Shown here: positions 4,205 through 43,974 of the stretch, piece after piece
How the letters are laid out: each line of letters begins with the position of its first letter
Numbering within the stretch: position 1 is the stretch's first letter
Program-made: the position numbers and the translations under genes
The notes under the pieces: generated by a model
The model's input: only the letters and a program-made list of their open reading frames with translations
Told to the model about the DNA's origin: nothing
The model's database searches: none
Assembly: GCA_951813295.1 (NCBI GenBank)
Contig: CATOTI010000002.1
Coordinates: forward strand, 2,924,522 to 2,988,521
Length of the DNA stretch: 64,000 nt
Origin: an uncultured Pseudomonadales bacterium
GTDB lineage: Bacteria; Pseudomonadota; Gammaproteobacteria; Pseudomonadales; Azotimanducaceae
Reading direction: 5' to 3'

Positions 4205-5688
<1,484 letters not shown>

Positions 5689-5725
5689 GGGGGCTCGCTC
5701 AAAAATGGACGCGGATTGTACGCCA

Positions 5726-5750
5726 ATTCCCGACTGTTTTACTCGGGTAT
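5726..5750. promoter_or_regulatory. Candidate IscR type-1-like (Rrf2-family) binding site upstream of sufB
   Basis: ATTCCCGACTGTTTTACTCGGGTAT; by hand 23/25 positions fit ATASYYGACTRWWWYAGTCRRSTAT (recalled consensus). Confidence 0.6.
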
Positions 5751-5857
5751 TCAAGCGATGTCGCGGCGCGTCGGAAACTCGTGCAGGCAGACGTACAGCC
5801 GAGCGATTTAGCGCTACCATCGCGCGCCCGAAGAAAGGCCTCGACCGCGCAACGGAA

Positions 5858-6487
5858 ATGCCCGAACTCGAAAAACTGCCCGAAGAGCACATCTATCATG
5901 CGTATGGGATTTACTTCCTCACGTCGCAGCATCGGATCGTGCGACGTCTCAAGAAACGCTACACACCGGCGATTCACGGCAACAAGGCGTGGAGGTCGAG
6001 CTTCCTCTTGATGGACTACTTCCTGCACTACCCGTTCAGACGGGGTGCGGAGGTACTCGAGATCGGGTGCGGGTGGGGACCGGCGGGCGTGTTCTGTGCG
6101 CGGCGCATGAAGGCCAAGGTGCTCGGTGTCGACCTCGACGAGAACGTTTTTCCGTTCCTCGAAATGCTCGCGGGGTTGAATGAAGTCGAGATCGAGACGC
6201 GACGGATGGATTTTGCCGATATCGATGCCGAGATCCTCGATTCGAAACGGATCGTCATGGGCTCGGACATCTGCTTCTGGGACAAGTTGGTCGATCCGCT
6301 CTTCGGACTCATCAGCCGGTCGATCGAGTGCGGCGTTCAGCGGATCGTCATCACTGATCCGGGGCGGCCGACCTTCTACGAACTCGCCGATCGGTGTGCG
6401 AAGACCTTCGATCGAGTCGTACTTCGATCCTGGTATGCCGTCGAGCCGAATCGTACGACGGGCGAGGTGCTCGAGATTCGCGGCTGA
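5858..6487 (+). CDS. Class I SAM-dependent methyltransferase
   Basis: [20 protein letters not shown] (motif I), [12 protein letters not shown]. Confidence 0.8.
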
Positions 6488-7729: not shown

Positions 7730-8398
7730 TCAAACCTCGGCTGTGATGAATCCCTTCAACTGGTCGGCGAGGTTGCTGCACGCCTGTTGACGTACCCGTG
7801 CGATGAAAGGGATCGGAACAATGACGGCCGGGATGAAGCTCGTACCGACCGCTTCGGAGCTCACTTTGCCGACGGCGATTCCTTCGGTGACGTCCCAGAT
7901 CGATGCTTCGTAGTTCGACCCGCTCTCCCAGGAGAGGAAGCCGAAACAAGCCGGGATGCCCCCGCTGACGATCGTGCATTGAACGCTGCCGGACTCTTCC
8001 GATCGCTGCGTCGTGCCTTCGATCCAGACAAGATATTTGACGCCGATTTCCTGGATTCGGTCGGCGATCATAGGACGGGAAATCACTTTCGTGAGGTCAC
8101 TCATGTTGAGCGGCGCCGTGCGCGGCTCGAACCAGGGGAATACGGCGTCGACGAATTCCTGGTCCTGCATCACGGCCAGGCGACTGTCGCCCGCCCCGAT
8201 GTTCTTGCTGACGCAGCTCACGAAATCGTCTTCCGTCTCGCCCTGTGTCTTGTGCTTGCGCGACAGGACGACGACAGCGCCCGATCCGATCAGCCCGGTG
8301 CGCGCCTCTCGTACTTCCTGGATAGTGGACTGAACACAGCCGGTGAGTGCGGTGAGCGCGCCGATGGCGGCTAACACGATGAAAAAGCGGCGAATCAC
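7730..8398 (-). CDS. Putative lipoprotein of unknown function
   Basis: GTG start overlaps the upstream stop (GTGA); IRRFFIVLAAIGALTALTGC lipobox. Confidence 0.7.
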   Translation of the reverse strand: MIRRFFIVLAAIGALTALTGCVQSTIQEVREARTGLIGSGAVVVLSRKHKTQGETEDDFVSCVSKNIGAGDSRLAVMQDQEFVDAVFPWFEPRTAPLNMSDLTKVISRPMIADRIQEIGVKYLVWIEGTTQRSEESGSVQCTIVSGGIPACFGFLSWESGSNYEASIWDVTEGIAVGKVSSEAVGTSFIPAVIVPIPFIARVRQQACSNLADQLKGFITAEV

Positions 8399-9168
8399 GA
8401 TTGAGTCTCCTGCTCCGTCGATTCGAGCCATTCCTTAACGCCCGAGACGGTCGTGAAATAAAACGAAAGGAATGCCGCTGCATCGCGCAGTGCCCAAACG
8501 GCGGCTTCGTTCAAGGCTGGTTCTTTTTGCGACTCCATCATGCCGAAGTTGCGCCGATTCGACTTGCCGTAACCGTGCACGTCCCACTGCGCGATTTGCG
8601 ATCCGTCCATCGCGAAGAGCTGCATCTCATAGCGGATCCAGACCTCGTAGAAATCGGTGCGCGTCTGCTCTGGAATCGCGAACTGCAGTTGCTGGATCTT
8701 CGGTATCAGAAGCGCGTCCAGTTCGATGTTCTGGCGTTTGAGTTCGGCGAGGATAAGTTGCGGATCGGGGCCGACGGGGACGGTCGCAGTTGCTTCGTCA
8801 GCTTCCTCCGCTTCTTCGGCTGCACCCGCGCTCGGGAGCGCCGTCGTCGTGAGCTGAGCGCGTACGCGTTCGGCGACTGGTACGACACGATCGAACATTG
8901 CATCGAACACCCGTTCGAAAACCGGGATCTGTGACGTCCCGAGATCGATGCTGTACTCGCCGAGGTACTCGAGGTCTTCTTCGTGCACGTAGCCGGCGAG
9001 CGTCTCGTCGTAGTAGACGCCGACCTCGACCGGCATCGAATCAACCAGCGGTCGTGGAATCGAGGTGTTGACGGTCACCGACGCGCCCCCCGCACATCCG
9101 ACGAGGAACGCGACGGCGAGCGTCAGCGGAAAAGCTCGGAGGAGTCTTGCAGAGGGTCTGTCGCGCAT
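8395..9168 (-). CDS. Putative lipoprotein of unknown function
   Basis: MRDRPSARLLRAFPLTLAVAFLVGCAGG lipobox; long ORF in operon. Confidence 0.72.
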   Translation of the reverse strand: MRDRPSARLLRAFPLTLAVAFLVGCAGGASVTVNTSIPRPLVDSMPVEVGVYYDETLAGYVHEEDLEYLGEYSIDLGTSQIPVFERVFDAMFDRVVPVAERVRAQLTTTALPSAGAAEEAEEADEATATVPVGPDPQLILAELKRQNIELDALLIPKIQQLQFAIPEQTRTDFYEVWIRYEMQLFAMDGSQIAQWDVHGYGKSNRRNFGMMESQKEPALNEAAVWALRDAAAFLSFYFTTVSGVKEWLESTEQETQS

Positions 9169-9258
9169 AGCTACAATCCTGGCGGTGCAGGCCTGAAAGC
9201 GCAGGCGGTTAGCGTCTGGCACGCTTACATTGCGCGGCTTCGAATCAGGCATCAGAGG

Positions 9259-10239
9259 CTACTCGAAATTCGGGAGACCAACAAAGGTCCCGTTGTTGCG
9301 GAAGGTGAGTTCGCGCATGAGCGCAGCAAAGTTTGCGCCAGAACGAGCCGCGCCCAGCACGACGGGAAAACCGATCGCGTGGATGCGCACTCGACGCGCG
9401 CCGGATTCGTCGGCGACATTGAAGCGGTCGATCGTGTCGACCGTTCTTTCGATCGACCCGCCCTGGAAGTCGTCGCCGAACACGTAAATGCTGATTTTCT
9501 TGTCGGGCGCATAGAACTGCGAGATCGCTTGCTCGATGCCTTCGACGGGGCTCGAATTGGAGAACACGTTCCAGTTGCGCATCCGCCGAACGATATTCTG
9601 GCGGACGGCGACCGAGTCGCGGATCCAGTCGCCGGCGTATTGGTCGAACATGTAATCGCCCATGTCGTTCATCACCTGGATGCCCTTCACCTGTGGGTAG
9701 ATGTCGAGCGTCTCCTGGACTTTGCGGATGACGAGAGGCCACGCGAAGTTGCGCATCGAGCCGGAAGTGTCGATGACGAAGATGATGTATTCGCTGTCGA
9801 CGGTGATGCCGCCGATCGTGTCATCTGCGCGTTCGAAACCGAGGCCCAGCAAGCGCTCCATTTCTTCGGAAAGTGATTGTTTGGCAGCGGCCAGCTTGTT
9901 CTCGTTGACGAGGTTCTCGTCGGCGCGCTGTTTTGTCGTATCGAACTCACCGAGGATTTCCGATAACTCCTGGCGCACCCGGGCGAGCTGGCGAAATTCC
10001 AATTCGAGCTGATCACGTTCTTCTTCGATTTGCCGCTGCAGAACCTTGGTCTGCCCCTGAATGTCGAAGTGCGAATCTCGCTTCATGTTGACGATGCCGT
10101 CGAGATCGATCGTCGGATCCTCTAACACGATCGGCTCGACCGTCTTGACGATCATCAGCAACAGAATGATCGCGCCGAAGCCGCAACAGATGACGTCGAG
10201 AAAGGAGAGACCGATTTCTTCCATGGCGCGGCGTTGCAT
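9259..10239 (-). CDS. Membrane-anchored VWA-domain protein with ExbD/TolR-like N-terminal TM
   Basis: SFLDVICCGFGAIILLLMIV TM, coiled coil, then FVIDTSGSM MIDAS motif. Confidence 0.85.
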   Translation of the reverse strand: MQRRAMEEIGLSFLDVICCGFGAIILLLMIVKTVEPIVLEDPTIDLDGIVNMKRDSHFDIQGQTKVLQRQIEEERDQLELEFRQLARVRQELSEILGEFDTTKQRADENLVNENKLAAAKQSLSEEMERLLGLGFERADDTIGGITVDSEYIIFVIDTSGSMRNFAWPLVIRKVQETLDIYPQVKGIQVMNDMGDYMFDQYAGDWIRDSVAVRQNIVRRMRNWNVFSNSSPVEGIEQAISQFYAPDKKISIYVFGDDFQGGSIERTVDTIDRFNVADESGARRVRIHAIGFPVVLGAARSGANFAALMRELTFRNNGTFVGLPNFE

Positions 10240-10260
10240 CGTGAACTACCCCAACTTCTC

Positions 10261-11355
10261 TTATGGCCAATCTCGCGAAGGCGACATGAATGAACCACCG
10301 GTCGCGCGTGACAGGCTCCAGTAGGCGGCCGCCGCCATCGGATCGCCTTCGATCGGGAACATGATGACGTTCATCGGAATCTGATTCGGCAGCACCCGAT
10401 AGGCACGTTCGAAGAGTTGGCGGCGCTCCCGCCCGTTGACCGTCGACTTGCGGGGCGCTCGTTCGCCGAGTGTCGGTAGCCCATCGGTGATCAGGAACAC
10501 ATTGTCCGGGAGCGGATTCATCGTGCTGATCTGGACAAAGAGCGAGTGAAGATTTGTGCCGTTCTCGGGCACGACCTCGTTGATGCGCTCGATCGCGTCG
10601 TCGATCGCGTCGGGTTCGGTGGCGTCCACCCAGACACCGTCTTCACCGACGTGAAATTCGGCGGCGGTGTTGTAGGTCATCATCTGAAACTGACTATCGA
10701 GCGGGACTTGGGCGGCAAGCCACTCGACGGTCCTGAGCGCTCGTTGCCACTTCGGCGCCGCGCGGCGTCGCTCGAGCGGCATGTTTCGCCGGCGGATCAC
10801 CTGCACGATCGTCTCGTCCAGCATCGACGCCGACGAATCGAGCACGATGAGCACGTGCCGACCGCCTACCCTGAGCCCGGTCAGATACTGGCGATCGCCC
10901 TCGCCGCGGATTTCCCGGACCCGGTTACCTTCGGCCGCACGCTCCTGCGCTTTCAGGCGCTCGACGTCCTGCTCGCGCGTTTCGATATCGGTCTTCAGCT
11001 CTTCGATGGACGCGATCCGCGCGATGGTCGCGGCTTCGAGATCGTCCTTGTCCTCGCGGCGCCGTTCGAGCTCCTCGATCATCGCCAGGAGTTCGCGCTT
11101 CGCCTGATCGACGCGGCGTTTGGTGTCCTCGAGGGTGTCTGTGAGATCGACGAGGTTCTCCTCGCCCACGTCGATTTGATAATCGAGTTTTCGGGATTCG
11201 GCGAGAAGATCCCGGTTGAGTTCTTTGGTCTCGTCGTCAACGGCGTGGTTGATGATGAGAAAGATGAGCACGACCGCGCCGAAGCCGCACGACATGACAT
11301 CCAGAAACGACAACGAGAAGACATCGAATCGACGTTTTGTTCTCCGCCGCGCCAC
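10261..11355 (-). CDS. Membrane-anchored VWA-domain protein with ExbD/TolR-like N-terminal TM (paralogous architecture)
   Basis: SFLDVMSCGFGAVVLIFLIIN TM, coiled coil, then VLDSSASM MIDAS and ITDGLPTLG. Confidence 0.85.
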   Translation of the reverse strand: MARRRTKRRFDVFSLSFLDVMSCGFGAVVLIFLIINHAVDDETKELNRDLLAESRKLDYQIDVGEENLVDLTDTLEDTKRRVDQAKRELLAMIEELERRREDKDDLEAATIARIASIEELKTDIETREQDVERLKAQERAAEGNRVREIRGEGDRQYLTGLRVGGRHVLIVLDSSASMLDETIVQVIRRRNMPLERRRAAPKWQRALRTVEWLAAQVPLDSQFQMMTYNTAAEFHVGEDGVWVDATEPDAIDDAIERINEVVPENGTNLHSLFVQISTMNPLPDNVFLITDGLPTLGERAPRKSTVNGRERRQLFERAYRVLPNQIPMNVIMFPIEGDPMAAAAYWSLSRATGGSFMSPSRDWP

Positions 11356-11367
11356 CGTGCGGTCCGC

Positions 11368-12633
11368 CTACACGTCGACCACGATGAATTGAAACGTCTC
11401 GCCGGCCACGCGCACGACGTCGCCGGGTTTGACGGCCTGCTTCGCGTACGCGGTTTCGTTGATCGAGACCGCGTGGGTCGCGCCGGTGATCACGACACCG
11501 TTGGCGCCGGCGTTGATGCCCGTGTCGACGCCCGCGTCGAGATGACTCGACGGGTGTGAGCGGAAATCCATACCCGACGCGATGGCCACGGCGACACCGC
11601 CGCGCAGCAGGTGCGTCGGTCGGGCCTCGCTCGGCGTCGTCTCGACGTCCTGCACGGGCGTACGTGAGAACGCGGCGACGTGTCTGACGTCCGGCGCGCC
11701 CGCCAGGAGGGCGGCGCTTTCGCGATCGATCGTTTGCCGGGCTGCTTCGCGCGAGGCGACTTCCACGGATACACCTTCGGCACGGAGTCGGTCGCCGAGG
11801 CCGGGCATCGCCTTCGCATATTCGGACAAGACGACGTGGTCGAAGCCGCGCGCCGCTTCGACGAGTTTGTCGAGGCGCCGGGCGTTCTTGTTCTTGAGCA
11901 TCTCGGCGGTGACGTCGACCCGGCGTGACTCACCGGCGTGATCGATCAAGACGCCGAACGTCGGCGGCATGCCGCCCTGATCGACCGCCTTGATCAACTG
12001 ATCGAAAACCTGCTGTTCGGTTGCGGCAATTCGCAAGGGGTCGAAGCGCGTCTGATCGATGAAACGATCGGCAACGGCATCCACCCAACCTTCCAGGAGC
12101 GAACGCATTCCAGCTTCGGCGACTTCGGCGCCGTCCGTGCTCGTCACCTGGTCGTTGAGTTCGAGTGTGCTCACGACGGCTGCGTGCATGGTGATGTCGA
12201 CGAACGCGGTGCGACGGGAGAGGGCCAGATCAGCGCTGCTGACGGCGGCGGCGTCGATAATCAGTCGAACGTTGAGGCCCGCCGCCTGGGCGATACCGAG
12301 CAGAAGGCTCATCTGCTCGGGCGATGTGGAGCTCGGCGTGACCAGGATCGTGTCGTCGGAGCGATCGACGTTTTCCGTGATCTTCGCGAGATGCGCATAC
12401 ACCAGGTCTGCCTGATTGCGTGCGACATCGGACGGCGTACCCAACGGCTCTTCATTCAACCGATACCAGAACTGGTCTTCGGTCTGGCGTGGGTGCAGGC
12501 GGGACTGCCGACTGGCGTCGAAACCGAACGCGATGTTCTTCTTCTCGACGAATGCGAGCGCGGGTTCCTGATACAGAACACGGCCCGATTGAGTGAGGGT
12601 TATCGCGATGTCGTTGGTTTCGATGACGAGCAC
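11368..12633 (-). CDS. Hsp70/actin-like (ASKHA) fold protein, possible FHA-like C-terminus
   Basis: IETNDIAITLT and AFVDITMHAAVVSTL resemble phosphate-binding loops; C-terminal TGATHAVSINETAY...GDVVRVAGETFQFIV. Confidence 0.6.
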   Translation of the reverse strand: MLVIETNDIAITLTQSGRVLYQEPALAFVEKKNIAFGFDASRQSRLHPRQTEDQFWYRLNEEPLGTPSDVARNQADLVYAHLAKITENVDRSDDTILVTPSSTSPEQMSLLLGIAQAAGLNVRLIIDAAAVSSADLALSRRTAFVDITMHAAVVSTLELNDQVTSTDGAEVAEAGMRSLLEGWVDAVADRFIDQTRFDPLRIAATEQQVFDQLIKAVDQGGMPPTFGVLIDHAGESRRVDVTAEMLKNKNARRLDKLVEAARGFDHVVLSEYAKAMPGLGDRLRAEGVSVEVASREAARQTIDRESAALLAGAPDVRHVAAFSRTPVQDVETTPSEARPTHLLRGGVAVAIASGMDFRSHPSSHLDAGVDTGINAGANGVVITGATHAVSINETAYAKQAVKPGDVVRVAGETFQFIVVDV

Positions 12634-13430
12634 TAGCGCACCTGCATATGGCGGACGAGGTTGTCGTTGCAGTAGTTCTGCGTATCGAGAACGAGGCGCT
12701 CCTGGACCAGTTGCAGTTGGTGCATCAGGAACATGATCACGATCGAAATCACGAGGGCGACAAACGTCGAGTTGAACGCTACGCCGAGACTGGTGGTAAC
12801 GCCGGCAATGTCACCCTCGACGGCACGGTAGGCCTGGCCCAGTGCGTCGCCGATACCGCGCACCGTGCCGATGAATCCGATCGACGGGATGGCCCAGGCG
12901 ATATAGCGCACCATCGCCAGTTCACTGTCGAGACGGTCGGATTCCGTTTCACAGACGCCGCGCACAGCGTCAGACACGTCCTGCACGTTGCGCGTCGACG
13001 AGAAACGTTGCAGTGCGGCGAGCAGCACCCGCGGCAGCAGGTTGTGCCGCGCCGTGTCGGGCAGCGCCTGGATCGGCCGCGAGTACTCCCTCGTATCCTC
13101 GGGCAGGATGCTCATGCCCTCGGAGACCTCGATGAAGCGGTTGTCAAGCATGTTGCGCTCGCGGAACGAGTTGCGTGCCTTGAGGCCCATGATCGACATC
13201 GCCCAAAGCATCAGGATGAAGCAGGATTCCTGCTCGTAATCGCGCAACACCACAAACAGCGACCGGTCGGGGACGAAGGCTTCGCCCTGCTCCGCGCGAG
13301 TGGCCTGTTCGGTGAGGATCGCCTCGGCGTTCGGTCGGATCAGCGTGACGTAAATCAGGTGGACGATGATGACCGCGACGATGAGGGCCGCGATCTGATA
13401 GACGAATTCGAATGAGAAGCTCTTTTTCAC
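12633..13430 (-). CDS. MotA/TolQ/ExbB proton-channel family protein
   Basis: AWAIPSIGFIGTVRGIGDALGQAYRAVEG...VTTSLGVAFNSTFVALVISIVIMF signature, N-terminal TMs. Confidence 0.85.
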   Translation of the reverse strand: MKKSFSFEFVYQIAALIVAVIIVHLIYVTLIRPNAEAILTEQATRAEQGEAFVPDRSLFVVLRDYEQESCFILMLWAMSIMGLKARNSFRERNMLDNRFIEVSEGMSILPEDTREYSRPIQALPDTARHNLLPRVLLAALQRFSSTRNVQDVSDAVRGVCETESDRLDSELAMVRYIAWAIPSIGFIGTVRGIGDALGQAYRAVEGDIAGVTTSLGVAFNSTFVALVISIVIMFLMHQLQLVQERLVLDTQNYCNDNLVRHMQVR

Positions 13431-13442
13431 GATTTTGTTTTT

Positions 13443-13778
13443 CTAGATGTCCACGGGAAATGTGACCTCGAGGTCTTCGGAAATATCCTCGCTCGGGACA
13501 AAAATATCGGGAGAGCGGACGGGCTCGAGGGTTTCGTCGTCCGGCTCCTCTTCGTCGGCGTCGCCCTCGGCGGGCGTCTCGCCATCGGTGTCGACCTCGT
13601 CGGGCGTCTCGGCGTCGCGGGATTCAGCATCTTCCAACTCGGCATTTTCTCTCTCTTCGTCCGCCACCCTCTCCTCAGCCAGCGTGTTGAAGGCGAGCGA
13701 CGAGCCGGGCGGTCCCGCTACTGGCGTCGGCAAGAGCAGGAGGCTCAGGAGGATGGCGATCGCGAGACGGTTCGACAT
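13443..13778 (-). CDS. Small acidic secreted protein of unknown function
   Basis: MSNRLAIAILLSLLLLPTPVAG signal peptide followed by a Glu/Asp-rich segment; tight operon spacing. Confidence 0.6.
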   Translation of the reverse strand: MSNRLAIAILLSLLLLPTPVAGPPGSSLAFNTLAEERVADEERENAELEDAESRDAETPDEVDTDGETPAEGDADEEEPDDETLEPVRSPDIFVPSEDISEDLEVTFPVDI

Positions 13779-13783
13779 GGGCG

Positions 13784-15818
13784 TCACTCGGCGAACCGGG
13801 CGATTCGGAATCCAAGATCCTGCCGGCCGTCCTTGCCGTAGTCGCGGAACGAGTTGCGCAGGTCCGTCACGGTACCGTGCTTCCAGCTCGATCCTTTGAT
13901 GACGTGAAAATCGCCGTTGTCCGGTCCCATGGGGTCCGTCGCCGGTTCTGATTCGGGAATCTCGTAGAAGTCGTGCATCCACTCGGCGACGTTGCCGCCG
14001 AGGTCGTAGACCCCGTGTTGATTGGGCGGAAAAATGCCGACAGGAGACGCGGCGATGTAGTTGTCGTTATAGTCGAAGATGATTCGACCGACAGTGTTCT
14101 GCGCCGCGCGGTCGGCGTAGTTGCCGTGCCGATCGGGCGGTGGAAAATCGTCCCCCCAGGGGAAACGGGTCGGTCGGGATTCGTTGAGGACCGCCCAGGA
14201 CCATTCCGCCTCGGTCGGCAGCCGATAGCCTTTTGCGCGTAGATTGAAACCCGTGATCTTGCCGAACTCTTCTTCGTAGAACGGCTCGAGTTTGTCCTGC
14301 AACGAAAGCCAGTTGCAGTACTGCGCCGCTTCGTTCCACGTGATCCCGACGACCGGTTGGTCTTCGTCGTTCAGATCGAGGCCTTCGAATTCTCCCGATT
14401 CATGACCCGGCGCGAATTGGCGGAACTCACGATTCGAAACTTCGGTGCGGCTGAGGTAGAAGAGCCGCGTCAATTTGACGTCCCGGATGACCTCGTTGGC
14501 CCGACGTCCGGGCTCCCGGCGCGATGCGCCGAGTTGAACCTGGGTGGGACTCAACAGCACGAGTTCCTGACCGGCGGCCGTCGTACGGACCGACTTCAGC
14601 GCCGCCAGGCGAGCTTCTTCGAGTGTGAGTAGCCGCACCTTGAGTTCCTGGCGAAACCCCGGTTGTGGCAGGAACGATCGTTTGTAGGCGGCATAGCCTT
14701 CGCGGCGGATCTCGATGTCGTGCGCAACGGCCGTGAGGGTCACGAGTTGCTCGCCGACGCCTTGGCGTTCACCGTCTACCCAGAGTTCGGCGTCGGCGGG
14801 CTGTGTCTCGACGGCGAGCTCGCCCGTTTGTTGCTCGAGCGCGACGCGCAGGGTCCGCGCCTGTCCGGAATCGAGTTCGATCGCCCGCGATTCCGGCGAA
14901 AAACCCACTTTGAAGAAGCGGACATCGAGTGATCCCGGCGCGACCTCGATGCTTAGCGGCGTCTCGCCCTGGTACTGGCCGTTGATCGTTACGCCCGCGC
15001 CGGCGGGTTGCGAGCGTAGCGTCAGTTCCCCGCCTGCCGGGAGCAGGTTGACGCCGGGGAGTTCGACCTCGGCTTCGGGCTCGAAATCGAGGATGTCGAC
15101 CCATGGTTGATAGCCGGGTTTCTTGATTGTCAGGCGTCGCTCGCCAGCAAGGATTTCGAAAGGTCCGGGCGTCGTTGTTGGAACGGCATCGCCGTCGACT
15201 TCGAGCGTCGCGTCGACTGGCACGGTCGGAATTCGCACATTCGCCCAGTTCGGGCGTAGTTCGACGTCGACGGACTGCTCTTCGCGTCGCCCGATGACGT
15301 CGATCGCGACGGACTGACTCTGGTAGCGCGGATGACTGACGAGAACCGTTTGTGTGCCGGCAGGGACGTCGGCGGTCATCGGTGCGGTGCCGCGAATGTC
15401 ACCCACTTGGATTTCGCTGCCTTCCGGAATGATGTCGAAGTGAACGACGCCCGGTAACTTCTCGAGCGTGAGTTCAAATGTCTGGTTTCTAGCGTCGCCC
15501 ACCTCGACGGTCTGATCGAGATCGTGATAACCGGGCGCCGTCGCCTTGAGTGCGTACGGACCGGTACGCAGAAGGTGGGTTTCGCCAAACTCGAACCCGC
15601 CATCGACCACGACGAACGCATCGACGGGCTCGGTCTCGAAACGCACGGATCGGGCCGTGAACAGGAACCAGAAAACCCACAGCACGACGAGGCCGACGAC
15701 GATTGCGACCATCTGCCATCTCGATACAGGAAACCGGCGCGCCTCGGTAACGGTAGCGCTCGGGGTGAACGACGATGCCTCGATCGTCGAGGTCCTGCCA
15801 CGGTCCTCTTCGGCCATC
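13784..15818 (-). CDS. TM-anchored PEGA-repeat protein with C-terminal SUMF1/FGE-like domain
   Basis: N-terminal TM (MVAIVVGLVVLWVFWFLF), several PEGA-type repeats, then YRLPTEAEWSWAVLN, YDLGGNVAEWMHD, GSSW...GFRIAR. Confidence 0.82.
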
Positions 15819-17325
15819 AGATCTTTTCTTCGCAGCGAACTTCGACAGGGGCCTGGTCGGACGCGAGCAACACTTCCTTGCGGACGTCGCGACAACCGTC
15901 CTGACTGCCGGTGATGGTGTATCGGCCCGGTCGGAGCCTCAGCTCGTGTCGGTCGAACGTGCCGAGTACGCCGACGTGGTGCACCACCACCCGGGTCTTC
16001 TTGTCGGAAATCAATACGAGTGGCACGGGCACGGTGGCGCGGGCAAGTAGCGTCTCGAATCGGTCGCGTCGGTTATCGAACTTTGCGCCGCCGCCGCGCT
16101 CGTCGAGCGCTTCGGCGAGGACCGTCTGAGCGTCTCGAAACTCGTTGTCCGAGGACAACAGACCCGGATCGGCGAGAACACGATCCATCGCGGTGATGAG
16201 GCGAGCCCGTCGCCTGATTTCGAGTTTGCCGTCGCGCGCGAACTTGAGTGACCCGTCGATCGCGAGCGCTTCGTCATAGTCGCTGAGCGCCCGTTCCCAT
16301 GATTCATTCTCTTCGTGTGCGCGAGCCGACGCTTTGAGCGCGTCGATCCGTGCGAGCGTTTTCGCCCGCTCGGTCTGTTGCTGGCCGGAGAGTGCCATCG
16401 GGTCGTCCGGACGCACCGCGAGGACACCACGAAACGCGAGGAGCGCTGCTTCGAAGTCCTTTTTCTCGAGTGCCGAGAAACCATTCGAGAGTTGTGCCTG
16501 ATAGCGTGCGTCGGCCTGCGCCTGGCGAAGGTTCTGTTGCCGTTCGCCGACGCCGGCCAGATCCGGGTCCAGATTGAGCGCGTCGTCGATGAGATCCGCG
16601 GCTCCTGCAAGGTTGCCCCTGAGTTCCGCACGTTCGGATTCGCGCAGAAGAGCAATGACCTCGGGTAGGGTCTTTGCCCGAGCCCGGCCACGTATTGCCT
16701 CGGTGTCACCGGGCGCGATGCTGATTGCGCGCTCGAATGCCGTCGCGGCGCGTTCCGGATCGCGTTCGTCGAGGGCCTTGTAACCGGACGCGATGCTTGT
16801 CCGCACGAGTTCGCGCCCTTGTTCGATCAACGCGTCGAGCTCGGCTACCGCAAGGCGATACTCGTCGAGAGCCGCGGGATACTCTTCGCGCAGAAACTGC
16901 TGGTCGGCGACGTTCGCGCGTTCCTTGATCGCAGCGAGTTCGTCGGCGCCCCAGGTCGCAACGTCCATTTCGTCTTCGAGCTGTAGCTGCCGGCGAACGA
17001 ACACCGCGAGCTGCTCCTGGGCTTTGGCCCGTGCCTGTTCTCGCTGGGCCGCTTCGAAAGGTGGTGGTGCGGCGTCGCCTTCCGTGGGGCGAGCGCGCGT
17101 CGCGGGGGCCGCGACGGATTCACTCGTTTGCGACGGCACGCTCACGGTATCGACCTGGTCGGGTACGACCGCGAACACATAGAAGACGATGCCGGCGAGG
17201 ACGACAAAGAGCCCGCCCAGGCCGATCGTTCGGCCTTGTAGGCGGGTCTTTTTGGTGGTGTCTGTCTGCCCCCGCGTCAGCGGTGCGACGGCGGGTTCAA
17301 TGGTCCGGTGGTCAGGTTGAGACAT
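15817..17325 (-). CDS. TM-anchored TPR/coiled-coil protein
   Basis: Single TM GLGGLFVVLAGIVFYVFAVV; TPR-like helical repeats (GFSALEKKDFEAALLAFRGVLAVRPDDPMAL); C-terminal PEGA-like segment LRPGRYTITGSQDG. Confidence 0.75.
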   Translation of the reverse strand: MSQPDHRTIEPAVAPLTRGQTDTTKKTRLQGRTIGLGGLFVVLAGIVFYVFAVVPDQVDTVSVPSQTSESVAAPATRARPTEGDAAPPPFEAAQREQARAKAQEQLAVFVRRQLQLEDEMDVATWGADELAAIKERANVADQQFLREEYPAALDEYRLAVAELDALIEQGRELVRTSIASGYKALDERDPERAATAFERAISIAPGDTEAIRGRARAKTLPEVIALLRESERAELRGNLAGAADLIDDALNLDPDLAGVGERQQNLRQAQADARYQAQLSNGFSALEKKDFEAALLAFRGVLAVRPDDPMALSGQQQTERAKTLARIDALKASARAHEENESWERALSDYDEALAIDGSLKFARDGKLEIRRRARLITAMDRVLADPGLLSSDNEFRDAQTVLAEALDERGGGAKFDNRRDRFETLLARATVPVPLVLISDKKTRVVVHHVGVLGTFDRHELRLRPGRYTITGSQDGCRDVRKEVLLASDQAPVEVRCEEKI

Positions 17326-18592
17326 CGTCGAACAGCTCGTCTTCCGACTCCTTGGTTTTCGCCGCCTCTTCGGCGGCGATCTCTTCGGCTATGTCGTCGG
17401 GCATCTCCAGACCCATCTCCTCGAAGTAGATGCGGCGTAGGATCCGTCGCAGTTCGACGTATTGGGCTTCCACTGATCCTTGTAGCCGGAGCGTCTCGTT
17501 TTCTAGGTCGATCGTATGGGGCGTGATCTCGGCTTCAGCGGACGTACCGAGCTCCTGCAGCACTTCTGCGTGTAGCTGTGCTTCGGCGCGATCCTCGATC
17601 GCCTGCATTGCGAGGGTTGCCCCACCGATCACACCGACGACACCACCGTAGCGCGTCGCGACGTTGTCACTTCTCTGAGCGAGGAGACCGCTTGCTATTG
17701 CTACTGCGCCCGCCATCGTCTTACGACGCGCCTTTTCGCGTTGGTTGCTGTACGCGATGGCTTCCCCATAGGAGGCGCTCCGCCAGTCCTGATACGACGG
17801 GTACATCTCGCGGTAGAAACCGTCGAAGTACTCATCGAGCGTATCGATGAAGAGATACTCCCTTTCACGAACCTTGCGCACGCGGTCGAGCATGGGATCG
17901 TCGTCGGCCGGCAGGCGGCGGACTTCATAGGCCCCCGGCTCGATCTCGACGACGTGAGTGGAGAACGCGTCGGGCGAGAAATCGCGCGCGAACTTCATTT
18001 CGGCGGTCGTGCGGATTTCCTGAATCTGCTCTGGGGTGAGGGCGCGCACGTACATCGTCATCTCGTCGACGATCCGCCGGTAGGTCGACTGGAACGGATC
18101 GATATCGGGCGGGATGGTGTCTTCATAGGCGTACTTGCTGGCCAACGTTTCGTATTCGCGCGTGAACCATTGCTGGCCGCGGGCATCGGTCACGGTGACT
18201 TCGACGATCATTCGTTCGCCGTCGGAGTGATGGATCGTGCCGCTGACGACGACATCCACCGCATGGGTCTCGCGCGGGATGACACGGACGGCGCCCCAGT
18301 TACCCGTCGATTGGAGGAGGTTCTTGGTGAAGAACGCCATGTAATTGCCTTCGGCACGGCGTACTTCCGGGATGATGTTTGCTTCGCGTTGCTCGTCGAA
18401 GGACTCGGGCACGTTGGGATCGAAGACTTCGACGCCAACGTCGAGGAGCAGCTCTTCGGGCACTTCCATGGTGGCTTGTTGGGGTGGTGTCAGGTCCACG
18501 ACCCGAACGGTTGCGGTCGAGCAACCGACGGCGACGAGAAGCGAGACACAGATGGTTGCGCGTAGCGTCAGGCCCAAGGGTGGAGCATCCAT
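17312..18592 (-). CDS. Putative lipoprotein of unknown function
   Basis: ATICVSLLVAVGCST lipobox; glycine-rich hydrophobic stretch (AGAVAIASGLLAQ...GGVVGVIGGATLAMQ). Confidence 0.72.
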   Translation of the reverse strand: MDAPPLGLTLRATICVSLLVAVGCSTATVRVVDLTPPQQATMEVPEELLLDVGVEVFDPNVPESFDEQREANIIPEVRRAEGNYMAFFTKNLLQSTGNWGAVRVIPRETHAVDVVVSGTIHHSDGERMIVEVTVTDARGQQWFTREYETLASKYAYEDTIPPDIDPFQSTYRRIVDEMTMYVRALTPEQIQEIRTTAEMKFARDFSPDAFSTHVVEIEPGAYEVRRLPADDDPMLDRVRKVREREYLFIDTLDEYFDGFYREMYPSYQDWRSASYGEAIAYSNQREKARRKTMAGAVAIASGLLAQRSDNVATRYGGVVGVIGGATLAMQAIEDRAEAQLHAEVLQELGTSAEAEITPHTIDLENETLRLQGSVEAQYVELRRILRRIYFEEMGLEMPDDIAEEIAAEEAAKTKESEDELFDDVST

Positions 18593-18601
18593 GTCGATCG
18601 C

Positions 18602-19747
18602 CTAGAGTCCTGATTTGTACCGACGATATTCTTCCCAGAGGAGCTCTCGCAATTCCGGGTCGGGTTCGGCCATCGCCGCTTCGCGCAACTGGCGAGCCAC
18701 GACATCGTCGTCTTTCGCATCGGGCGTATCCGGTGGAACGGACGCCGTGACCGGCACCGGTGGCCGCGGTGGCCCGATTGGACCGTTAGCACCCTGTGCG
18801 GGTGCCGAACCCTGGCCGTTGCTGACGGGGCTGCCGGACTGTTCGCCGCTGCCGGTCGGTTCGGGGACGCCGCCACCACCGCCCGATTGAGGTTGGGCAT
18901 CGGCTTTGCGCGCGGCGATGACGTTACGTTCGTCGAGAATCTCGCCATCGAAATCGCCGAGGGCTTTCTCGAGTTCGGCGTCGCCCGCTACGCTCCGATC
19001 ATCATCGCCACTGGCCCCGGGTCGTCCCGGTTCACCGCCCGCGCCCTGTTCTTCGGATTCTTCGCCGCCACCGCCGTTGGCGTCCTCTTCTTCATCGCCC
19101 CCACCGGCTTCTTCGCTGCCCGGAAGGCCCGGTAACTCGGTGCTGGTCTCCCAGCCGTCGCCATCATCGCCCGCGGGTGAACCGGGTGGCGGACCGCCGG
19201 CCTCGGCCATGTCACCTTCCATTCCGCCGCTTTGCTGGTCCTGACCTTGCTGACCGCTCTGCGGTTGGCCGCCTTGCTGTTGTTGCTGCCCCTGTTGGCC
19301 ACCTTGTTGTTGCTGCTGTGATTGCTCGCCGCCTTGCTGTTGTTCCTGGCCCTGCTGCTGCGATTGCTGGCCGCCTTGCTGGCTTGATTCCTGGGGTCGC
19401 CCGGACGGGGGCTGGCCACCACTTTGCTGCTGACTCTGGTTCTGCGGGCTCGGTGATTGTGGCGAACTCGACGAAGGACTCTGCGACGGCGAACTCGGCG
19501 AACTCGGCGAACTCGGCGGGCTCGGCATTGACTGCGGGCTCGGCATGCTGGGCGAGCTCGAGGAGGAAGGCATCGAGGGGCTCGATGATGATTGGCTGGG
19601 TCGTGAAGGTGGTGTTGGTAGCTGCGGCATCTGACACGCGGCGACCGCCCAAACGGTCGCGAGTACGAATGTTCGGCGAAGTAAACGGAACGCGCTGGGC
19701 AGTAAAACGTCAGCTCGCTCGATGGGACTTCCTGCTGCTCGAATCAT
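18602..19747 (-). CDS. Low-complexity Gln/Ser/Pro/Gly-rich putative lipoprotein
   Basis: VLATVWAVAACQMP lipobox followed by poly-(S/P) and poly-(Q/G) tracts. Confidence 0.7.
   Translation of the reverse strand: MIRAAGSPIERADVLLPSAFRLLRRTFVLATVWAVAACQMPQLPTPPSRPSQSSSSPSMPSSSSSPSMPSPQSMPSPPSSPSSPSSPSQSPSSSSPQSPSPQNQSQQQSGGQPPSGRPQESSQQGGQQSQQQGQEQQQGGEQSQQQQQGGQQGQQQQQGGQPQSGQQGQDQQSGGMEGDMAEAGGPPPGSPAGDDGDGWETSTELPGLPGSEEAGGGDEEEDANGGGGEESEEQGAGGEPGRPGASGDDDRSVAGDAELEKALGDFDGEILDERNVIAARKADAQPQSGGGGGVPEPTGSGEQSGSPVSNGQGSAPAQGANGPIGPPRPPVPVTASVPPDTPDAKDDDVVARQLREAAMAEPDPELRELLWEEYRRYKSGL
19240..19600. repeat. Coding low-complexity repeat region (Gln/Gly and Ser/Pro codons)
   Basis: Repetitive gcc-ttg-ctg-ttg and ctcggcgaa-type units inside the CDS. 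Confidence 0.8.
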
Positions 19748-19877: not shown

Positions 19878-21278
19878 TCAATCCGTTCTTTCTGTCCCGT
19901 ATTCGGGGTAATAGTCGAAGCGATACGCGATGCGTACGTCGTTCGTCTCCTGTGGCTCACCATCGAGGAAAGCGGGTCGATAGCGTGCGAGCCGAGCGGA
20001 CCGCCGCGCCCGTAAATCCATTATCCCGTCTGGATCCGACTCGAGCAGGTCGACACGATCGACGAATCCGCGCTTGCTGATACTGACCGCCATCTCGACG
20101 ACGCCTTCCATCCGGTCGTCCGCGCTTCGATCGGTGGGCGCTCGAGGATTGGGTGGCAACGGAAGGTAGAGCGCTGTGGGGTACGAAAATTCCGCGTCGT
20201 GAGCCGCCCGATCACTCTGCAGCAGCTCCGATGCCCGTCGGTAAAGCGGTAGGGCGCGCGTGTATTTGTCGAAGATCAGGAACCAATCCGCGAGATCCAA
20301 CATCGCCCGAGCGACGTCGTTTGGCCCGTATCGATCGGTTGCCCTGACGATCTTGACCGCGTCGATTAACGCCCGTTCTCCGCGCGCGAAGGCGTTGATC
20401 ATCACGGGCCGGGCCATCGGATCGCGTTGGGTGCTGCGCCCGCGCGGCGCGACGGCGTCGACGTCGAAAGTATTGGTTGGCGGATAACGCTCGTCTCGGT
20501 AGGTCTTCGCGATACCGCGTAAGGCGCGTAGCCGTAGCGGATCGTCCGCGGGTAACGTCGTCGAAGCGATGCGGTTGGCGTGTTCGAAAAGGTCGCGTGC
20601 CGAGAAGATGTTGTAGGTCGCCATGTACCAGTCGGCAAGCGCGAAGATTCCGTCGAGCAGACGAGGGTCGTCGCCCCGATACGATCGCAACAGCACGCCG
20701 TACGCGTATTCGTGGCGGTCGTTGGCGCCGATCAGGTCGCCCCGGTCGGCGAGGAGAGCAGCTTCCCGGTAGACGACGTTCACCTGCTCGGGCGAATGCA
20801 ACCCCGCGTTGACCCGCGTGACGTGGAGCGCGCGCTCGTAAGCGCCGAGCGCTGCATCCGCGTTGCCTAATTCGGCTAGCGCGTCGCCGAGCAACACCAA
20901 GGGTTCGATCAATGCCGCGTCGTATCGGTTCCGCGCGGCTTCGATCTGATTGATTTCAGTCTGGGCGATCTCGACGGCCTGGAGGAACTCGCGCGCGGCG
21001 ATCGCGTCTACGGCGCCCGATTGCGCGGGAATCGACTCGACGACATCGCTCGGCGTCGTCACTTCGTCGCTCGCGCCCTCGGCGAACGAAATTGAACAGG
21101 CGAAGATCGCCACGAGCAGACCGCTTCGAATCGAAGCCGATGACGGCCTTGACCCGCGAACGCGGCGGGTCGTCCGTCTGCTCAGACCTGGAGATTGTGC
21201 CTTGCTAGTCACGTGTCTTATCGGTGCTCTTGCGTTCGTCATTGTCTTTGAGTTCGTCCGAGTGTCGGCGGGCCTCAT
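19878..21278 (-). CDS. Secreted TPR protein with TonB-like C-terminal domain
   Basis: Signal-like LLVAIFACSISFAEGA, TPR-like repeats, C-terminal MEGVVEMAVSISKRGFVDRVDLLESDPDG...ARYRPAFLDGEPQETNDVRIAYRF. Confidence 0.72.
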   Translation of the reverse strand: MRPADTRTNSKTMTNARAPIRHVTSKAQSPGLSRRTTRRVRGSRPSSASIRSGLLVAIFACSISFAEGASDEVTTPSDVVESIPAQSGAVDAIAAREFLQAVEIAQTEINQIEAARNRYDAALIEPLVLLGDALAELGNADAALGAYERALHVTRVNAGLHSPEQVNVVYREAALLADRGDLIGANDRHEYAYGVLLRSYRGDDPRLLDGIFALADWYMATYNIFSARDLFEHANRIASTTLPADDPLRLRALRGIAKTYRDERYPPTNTFDVDAVAPRGRSTQRDPMARPVMINAFARGERALIDAVKIVRATDRYGPNDVARAMLDLADWFLIFDKYTRALPLYRRASELLQSDRAAHDAEFSYPTALYLPLPPNPRAPTDRSADDRMEGVVEMAVSISKRGFVDRVDLLESDPDGIMDLRARRSARLARYRPAFLDGEPQETNDVRIAYRFDYYPEYGTERTD

Positions 21279-43374: not shown

Positions 43375-43974
43375 GTGATAGATATTCTCATCTCGGGTGG
43401 GTGGCTGATGTTGCCCATCGTCGGCGCGAGCGTGTTAGCGCTCGCGATCGCAATCGAACGTGCATGGTCCTTGCGGATCGGTAATGTCGTCCCCGACGGC
43501 CTGCTGGCCGAGACGCTGACCGCAATCGACGACGCGGGCCTCATCGAACGACTGCGTGATGCAGGTCCGCTCGGCCGCGTGCTGGCCGCGGGCGTGGCGA
43601 ACCTGGAACGCGGTCGCGATTCGATGCGTGAAGCCATGGAAGACGCCGGCAGTCAGGTCACGCACGAACTCGAGCGTTATCTCAATGTGCTCGGCACCAT
43701 CGCCCTCATCAGCCCGCTCATGGGTTTGCTCGGCACAGTGGTCGGAATGATCGAAGTGTTCGACGTTCTGATGCTCGAAGGCGCCGGAAGTGCCAATTCG
43801 TTGGCGGGCGGCATCAGCCAGGCGTTGGTGACCACCGCCGCCGGAATCACCGTGGCGGTCCCGGTGCTGGTGATCTACCGATACTTCCTGCGCAAAGTCG
43901 ACGATCTGGTCGCGTCGCTCGAACATGCCGCGATCGAACTCGCCGAGTTCGCGCAGGATCGAGAGCGTCGGTGA
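43375..43974 (+). CDS. exbB: ExbB/TolQ-family proton channel protein
   Basis: GTIALISPLMGLLGTVVGMIEVF...ISQALVTTAAGITVAVPVLVIYRYF; GTG start. Confidence 0.9.
   Translation: MIDILISGGWLMLPIVGASVLALAIAIERAWSLRIGNVVPDGLLAETLTAIDDAGLIERLRDAGPLGRVLAAGVANLERGRDSMREAMEDAGSQVTHELERYLNVLGTIALISPLMGLLGTVVGMIEVFDVLMLEGAGSANSLAGGISQALVTTAAGITVAVPVLVIYRYFLRKVDDLVASLEHAAIELAEFAQDRERR

Follow-up and report, generated by a model that had tools for sequence, protein, structure and literature searches.

In a stretch of 64,000 nucleotides from an uncultured Pseudomonadales bacterium (hereafter the window, meaning the whole stretch of DNA that was analysed), two neighbouring genes, VWA1 and VWA2, encode proteins that probably pair up as the axle of a proton-driven motor in the inner membrane; each of the two proteins ends in a metal-binding adhesion domain. 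An invariant Asp in the membrane helix together with a MIDAS in both proteins, the constant presence of a TolQ-like protein with both pore threonines, and the lack of an ExbD gene in the operon make a heterodimeric axle the most likely explanation. We consider it fairly probable that the motor is of the 5:2 type, with the TolQ-like protein forming the ring and with VWA1 and VWA2 as its two unlike axle subunits.

Both reading frames are open on the minus strand where an earlier note on this DNA had placed them, VWA1 (364 amino acids) at 10261..11355 and VWA2 (326 amino acids) at 9259..10239, and their helix, coiled coil and DSSAS or DTSGS motif are as it had described. From the reading frames, the alignments and Pfam (for VWA2, Pfam matches of orthologues), each protein begins with a short basic N-terminal tail and an Asp-containing membrane helix, from which a coiled coil leads to a MIDAS-bearing VWA domain. 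Alignment and hhalign place the helix of VWA1 at residues 15-36 (11248..11313, minus strand), in a region that reads ...FSLSFLDVMSCGFGAVVLIFLII..., and that of VWA2 at residues 11-32 (10144..10209, minus strand), in a region that reads ...IGLSFLDVICCGFGAIILLLMIV.... The earlier note had made conservation of the helix Asp a test of its reading; in our alignments, D19 of VWA1 (codon 11299-11301) and D15 of VWA2 (codon 10195-10197) are 100% conserved in 96 and 104 aligned rows, respectively, the window included, where only sequences with a letter at that column are counted. The C-G-F-G-A stretch beside the Asp is nearly invariant as well. In the VWA1 alignment, D173 of the MIDAS (DSSAS, residues 173-177, 10825..10839, minus strand) is conserved at 99% and S175, S177 and D291 at 100%, and the C-terminus, EGD...DWP, is also conserved. 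In VWA2 (DTSGS, residues 157-161, 9757..9771, minus strand), D157, S159 and D256 are conserved at 100% and S161 at 99%.

The two helices closely resemble each other, as had been claimed. They match with an hhalign probability of 99.6% (E 7e-24), a likeness that chance could not plausibly produce. Identity between the consensus sequences is 65% in the helix and 28-32% over the coiled coil and the VWA domain, which is what would be expected if both helices fit one pore. At loci L050 and L048 additional VWA2-like copies, full or partial, adjoin the operon, possibly as a result of recent duplication.

The VWA fold is assigned more firmly for VWA1 than for VWA2. With single sequences, the Pfam VWA family is matched by VWA1 with E 1.5e-4 and by VWA2 with E 0.04, both under the curated cut-off. 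Among VWA1 orthologues, 24 of 28 match the Pfam family VWA_2, and a Foldseek search with a modelled orthologue retrieved VWA structures (E about 1e-5). With the D-x-S-x-S motif and the distal Asp, these matches identify VWA1 as a VWA fold with a MIDAS. For VWA2, where only a few of the 28 orthologues match a VWA family in Pfam, the motif and those matches suggest the same fold. PDB sequence searches with the profiles of both proteins returned mostly coiled coils.

The putative ring is formed by a TolQ/MotA-like channel subunit of 265 amino acids (12633..13430, minus strand), which was assigned by Pfam, alignment and Foldseek of an orthologue. It matches the MotA_ExbB family PF01618 with E 7.6e-15 (55.2 bits against a cut-off of 22.9), and its threonines T189 and T222, 100% conserved in the alignment, fall in the same columns as the pore threonines of the TolQ that this genome also encodes. 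Near the second of these, the protein has a Val where the genome's TolQ has a Glu. We modelled TolQ and VWA1 together with AF2, using a natural stretch at locus L100 in which TolQ, a stop codon and VWA1 lie in frame, read through, with 51 aligned rows. Foldseek matched the fusion model (pLDDT 84.6) to VWA proteins and to TolQ/ExbB structures, which supports both folds. The pTM of 0.51 and the pLDDT of about 55-60 at the start of the VWA1 helix correspond to no confident interface, and therefore we do not claim one. The genome contains seven MotA/ExbB-family genes; alongside two of the encoded proteins (G000:C3:47975-48301 and G000:C2:1159260-1159487) no ExbD was found.

The VWA pair and the TolQ-like gene belong to an operon of 11 genes (7730-19747) that overlap or are separated by no more than 21 bp, in the order LipD, LipC, TPR, PEGA/FGE, small secreted protein, TolQ-like, Hsp70-fold, VWA1, VWA2, LipA and LipB. 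The core of LipD, LipC, TPR, PEGA/FGE, TolQ, VWA1 and VWA2 is retained in divergent lineages within the phylum. A scan of a genome collection yielded 80 loci. The 64 loci with full flanks all contain TolQ, VWA1 and VWA2. LipC, TPR and PEGA/FGE are present in 63 of the 64, the Hsp70-fold gene in 56, LipA in 50 and LipB in 49; LipD, searched by its C-terminal 110 residues, has matching reading frames in 68 fetched loci. Locus L057 is the sole core-poor one. Operons reduced to the core occur in some gammaproteobacterial lineages and at the loci of another family of the phylum (f199), which probably belongs to another class. Within Gammaproteobacteria the system is present but scattered (20 of 274 genomes in a survey of the class had a match), and the VWA pair was found in all 13 genomes searched of the genus. 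In one genome (G213, locus L200), the VWA pair lacks tolQ in the operon and a tolQ orthologue is located on another contig; in another (G091, L197), tolQ is relocated to after VWA2. Just upstream of the operon, a gene at 19878-21278 (minus strand) encodes a TonB-like C-terminus, as judged by eye, and a tetratricopeptide-like stretch, with homologues in 39 fetched loci. A methyltransferase-like gene at 5639-6487 (plus strand), convergent with the operon, has homologues close to the operon in 45 fetched loci, and conservation thus extends in part past the operon itself.

Each paralogue alone has the full set of conserved features, and VWA1 and VWA2 might therefore form two homodimeric motors, or mixed dimers, on one TolQ-like ring rather than an obligate heterodimer. 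AglRQ and AglRS of Myxococcus have been proposed as two such channels (PMC9389320). However, VWA1 and VWA2 always occur together, in the same order and with a spacing that is usually a 1-bp overlap or at most 30 bp, and the invariant residues of their two domains differ greatly. We therefore regard separate homodimers or mixed dimers as unlikely.

The axle reading further implies that the VWA helices themselves, rather than an ExbD, occupy the pore. The ExbD of the window, with the helix PLIDVVFLLLIFFMV that the earlier note had used for comparison, is encoded at about 44022 (plus strand), 32 kb from the VWA genes and beside its own ExbB at 43375, and thus lies outside the VWA operon. An ExbD model search of the fetched loci found none within the operon; the two ExbD reading frames that it detected (L201, 662-1093; L204, 2-415) are also outside, since the operon starts more than 5 kb away in both cases. 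Four ExbD genes are present in the genome, and the VWA proteins could conceivably be TolA- or TonB-like transducers on the side of the ring, with an ExbD from elsewhere filling the pore. A different vWA family with such a topology is described in the available part of a recent paper (PMC12204202), but that family is reported there to be without the SHLS motif, which argues against the comparison. The operon lacks ExbD across divergent lineages of the phylum and the helix Asp is invariant at a position that aligns with that of MotB, so that we consider a role as side transducers quite improbable.

The alignment with MotB also changes how the helix is best described. The earlier note had called it ExbD/TolR-like; the Asp is indeed invariant, but the profiles point elsewhere. 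Neither VWA protein matches PF02472 (ExbD/TolR) in Pfam, and against ExbD helices the VWA1 and VWA2 helices reach hhalign probabilities of 1.3% and 0.6%, no better than those of control helices and with the Asp unaligned. Against ten MotB helices the values are 35.5% and 14.6% and the Asp residues align with each other; ExbD against MotB helices gives 11.3%. Column permutation gives p = 0.009 and 0.004 for MotB and 0.54 and 0.30 for ExbD (VWA1 and VWA2, respectively). On these profile comparisons the helix would be better called MotB-like, a correction of emphasis and not a proof of descent, because the alignment is short and the MotB rows are few. In Pfam, neither protein matches MotB_plug (PF13677), and an OmpA-like peptidoglycan-binding domain was matched neither by them nor by their orthologues. 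We rejected a flagellar stator, since no MotB_plug protein was found in 13 genomes of the genus, and Zorya defence, for which the ZorA match was only E 0.006 and ZorB was absent. What stands of the earlier stator-type reading, its ExbD/TolR wording aside, is the invariant Asp, the TolQ-like partner with its pore threonines, the lack of ExbD or TolR in the operon, the close spacing of the two VWA genes, and an agreement with published AF3 models that is described below. That the Asp is merely structural, as a helix cap or in helix-helix packing for which the C-G-F-G-A stretch could be the motif, and that the two VWA proteins make up an envelope complex that is not energised, is very improbable given the MotB-like profile match and an obligate TolQ-like partner that retains the pore Thr pair.

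The remaining genes of the operon provide candidate partners for the VWA pair. The PEGA/FGE protein (13784..15895, minus strand; Pfam/NCBIfam and PDB search) has an N-terminal membrane helix, PEGA repeats and a C-terminal FGE-like domain. This domain matches the NCBIfam model of GldK with E 1.3e-29, but its 103.8 bits are far below the cut-off of 350, and in a PDB search PorK chains matched with lower scores than human FGE. We therefore reject membership of GldK and take the likeness to GldK and PorK as a resemblance only. Across 65 sequences, Cys is missing from the final 60 residues, the segment in which we take the active-site Cys pair of human FGE to be located, and for this reason the domain is probably non-catalytic, acting as a binding domain as in GldK. 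The TPR protein (15817..17325, minus strand; Pfam and locus comparison), a core gene product, also has an N-terminal membrane helix. LipC (17312..18592, also core), LipA (8395..9252) and LipB (7730..8431), all on the minus strand and the latter two accessory, are predicted lipoproteins based on locus comparison and lipoboxes. LipD (18602..19747, minus strand), 9 bp from LipC, is a predicted lipoprotein of low complexity, rich in Ser, Pro, Gln and Gly, with a conserved C-terminus. In E. coli, lipoproteins with a residue other than Asp at position +2 are directed to the outer membrane; non-Asp residues are common at this position in the lipoboxes of LipA, LipB and LipC, and if the rule applies here, these proteins would be located in the outer membrane. 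Between PEGA/FGE and TolQ, a small, poorly conserved and probably secreted protein is encoded at 13443..13904 (minus strand), with an uncertain start.

The Hsp70-fold protein (421 amino acids, 11368..12633, minus strand) is an accessory component, absent in some lineages. Its Hsp70/actin fold was recognized from an AF2 model (pLDDT 92.5) that Foldseek matches to Hsp70/DnaK with E 6.5e-16 and a TM-score, normalised to the query, of about 0.58; no Pfam family, Hsp70 included, is matched by any of 32 members. Inspection by eye revealed no signal or membrane segment, and we therefore place the protein in the cytoplasm.

The idea of a motor with paired VWA proteins is not new, because such pairs are already in print as 'TPH-vWA' proteins (Williams-Jones et al., June 2025; PMC12204202). 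As far as the available part of that paper describes them, these are mostly heterologous pairs encoded beside tolQ in clusters without tolR or exbD, with a conserved Asp, and AF3 models of the pairs place both Asp residues within the threonine ring. VWA1 and VWA2 share with them the paired, different vWA proteins, the Asp-bearing pore helix, the adjacency to tolQ, the lack of tolR and exbD, the occurrence in Proteobacteria and the proposed mechanism, a likeness by description and not by sequence comparison, the set in the available text being centred on Idiomarina. The available main text does not mention PEGA/FGE, LipC, LipD or other lipoprotein genes, or Hsp70-fold genes. A review from 2026 that cites the paper leaves the vWA proteins undiscussed, and our literature searches on the operon's gene set turned up no source other than the paper itself. 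To the published picture we add the conserved core of the operon, the protein with the Hsp70 fold and the resemblance of the helix to MotB.

Several characterized systems share parts of this layout. As in MotA/MotB and ZorA/ZorB, an Asp opens a single helix with MotB-like surroundings and the ring has conserved pore threonines; in contrast to these, the pair is heterologous, carries VWA heads and has no OmpA domain that we could find. With ExbB/ExbD and TolQ/TolR the system has in common a ring protein of the MotA_ExbB Pfam family with the TolQ/ExbB fold, but the axle helix is unlike ExbD by profile and no ExbD domain is present. GldKLMN/PorKLMN similarly combine a ring, a long periplasmic axle and a partner with an FGE fold, whereas here the FGE domain is on a membrane-anchored PEGA protein and the axle, unlike GldM, ends in VWA heads. 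To our knowledge, AglQ and AglS do not carry VWA heads either. By its published description, AglRQS, which functions in Myxococcus gliding, is similar in that one ring protein is served by two different axle subunits (PMC9389320).

We hypothesize that each Asp helix is inserted in the pore of a TolQ-like pentamer and that a proton would be exchanged there at D19 or D15, beside the threonines T189 and T222. The proton flow would turn or stroke the VWA pair, and the coiled coils would transmit this motion into the periplasm. There, the MIDAS-bearing VWA heads may grip their partners, most likely PEGA/FGE, the TPR protein and the operon's own outer-membrane lipoproteins, in a layout that would work like GldKLM in gliding and type IX secretion or like AglRQS. 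In lineages that have one, the Hsp70-fold protein may serve as a cytoplasmic scaffold or regulator. More tentatively, we speculate that the system is one more kind of rotary machine that spans the envelope, in addition to Tol-Pal and GldKLMN. An obligate 5:1:1 proton motor would use its two metal-dependent VWA heads to power an assembly of PEGA/FGE, TPR and lipoproteins at the outer membrane, and the Hsp70-fold protein would act on this motor as a clutch from the cytoplasm; this fuller picture is possible but doubtful.

The family is thus a predicted proton-driven force generator. With the genes that are conserved around it, the motor already predicted in print gains a set of partners that can be tested. 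An axle made of two distinguishable subunits in a single pore would also permit asymmetric mutants, which homodimeric motors do not offer.
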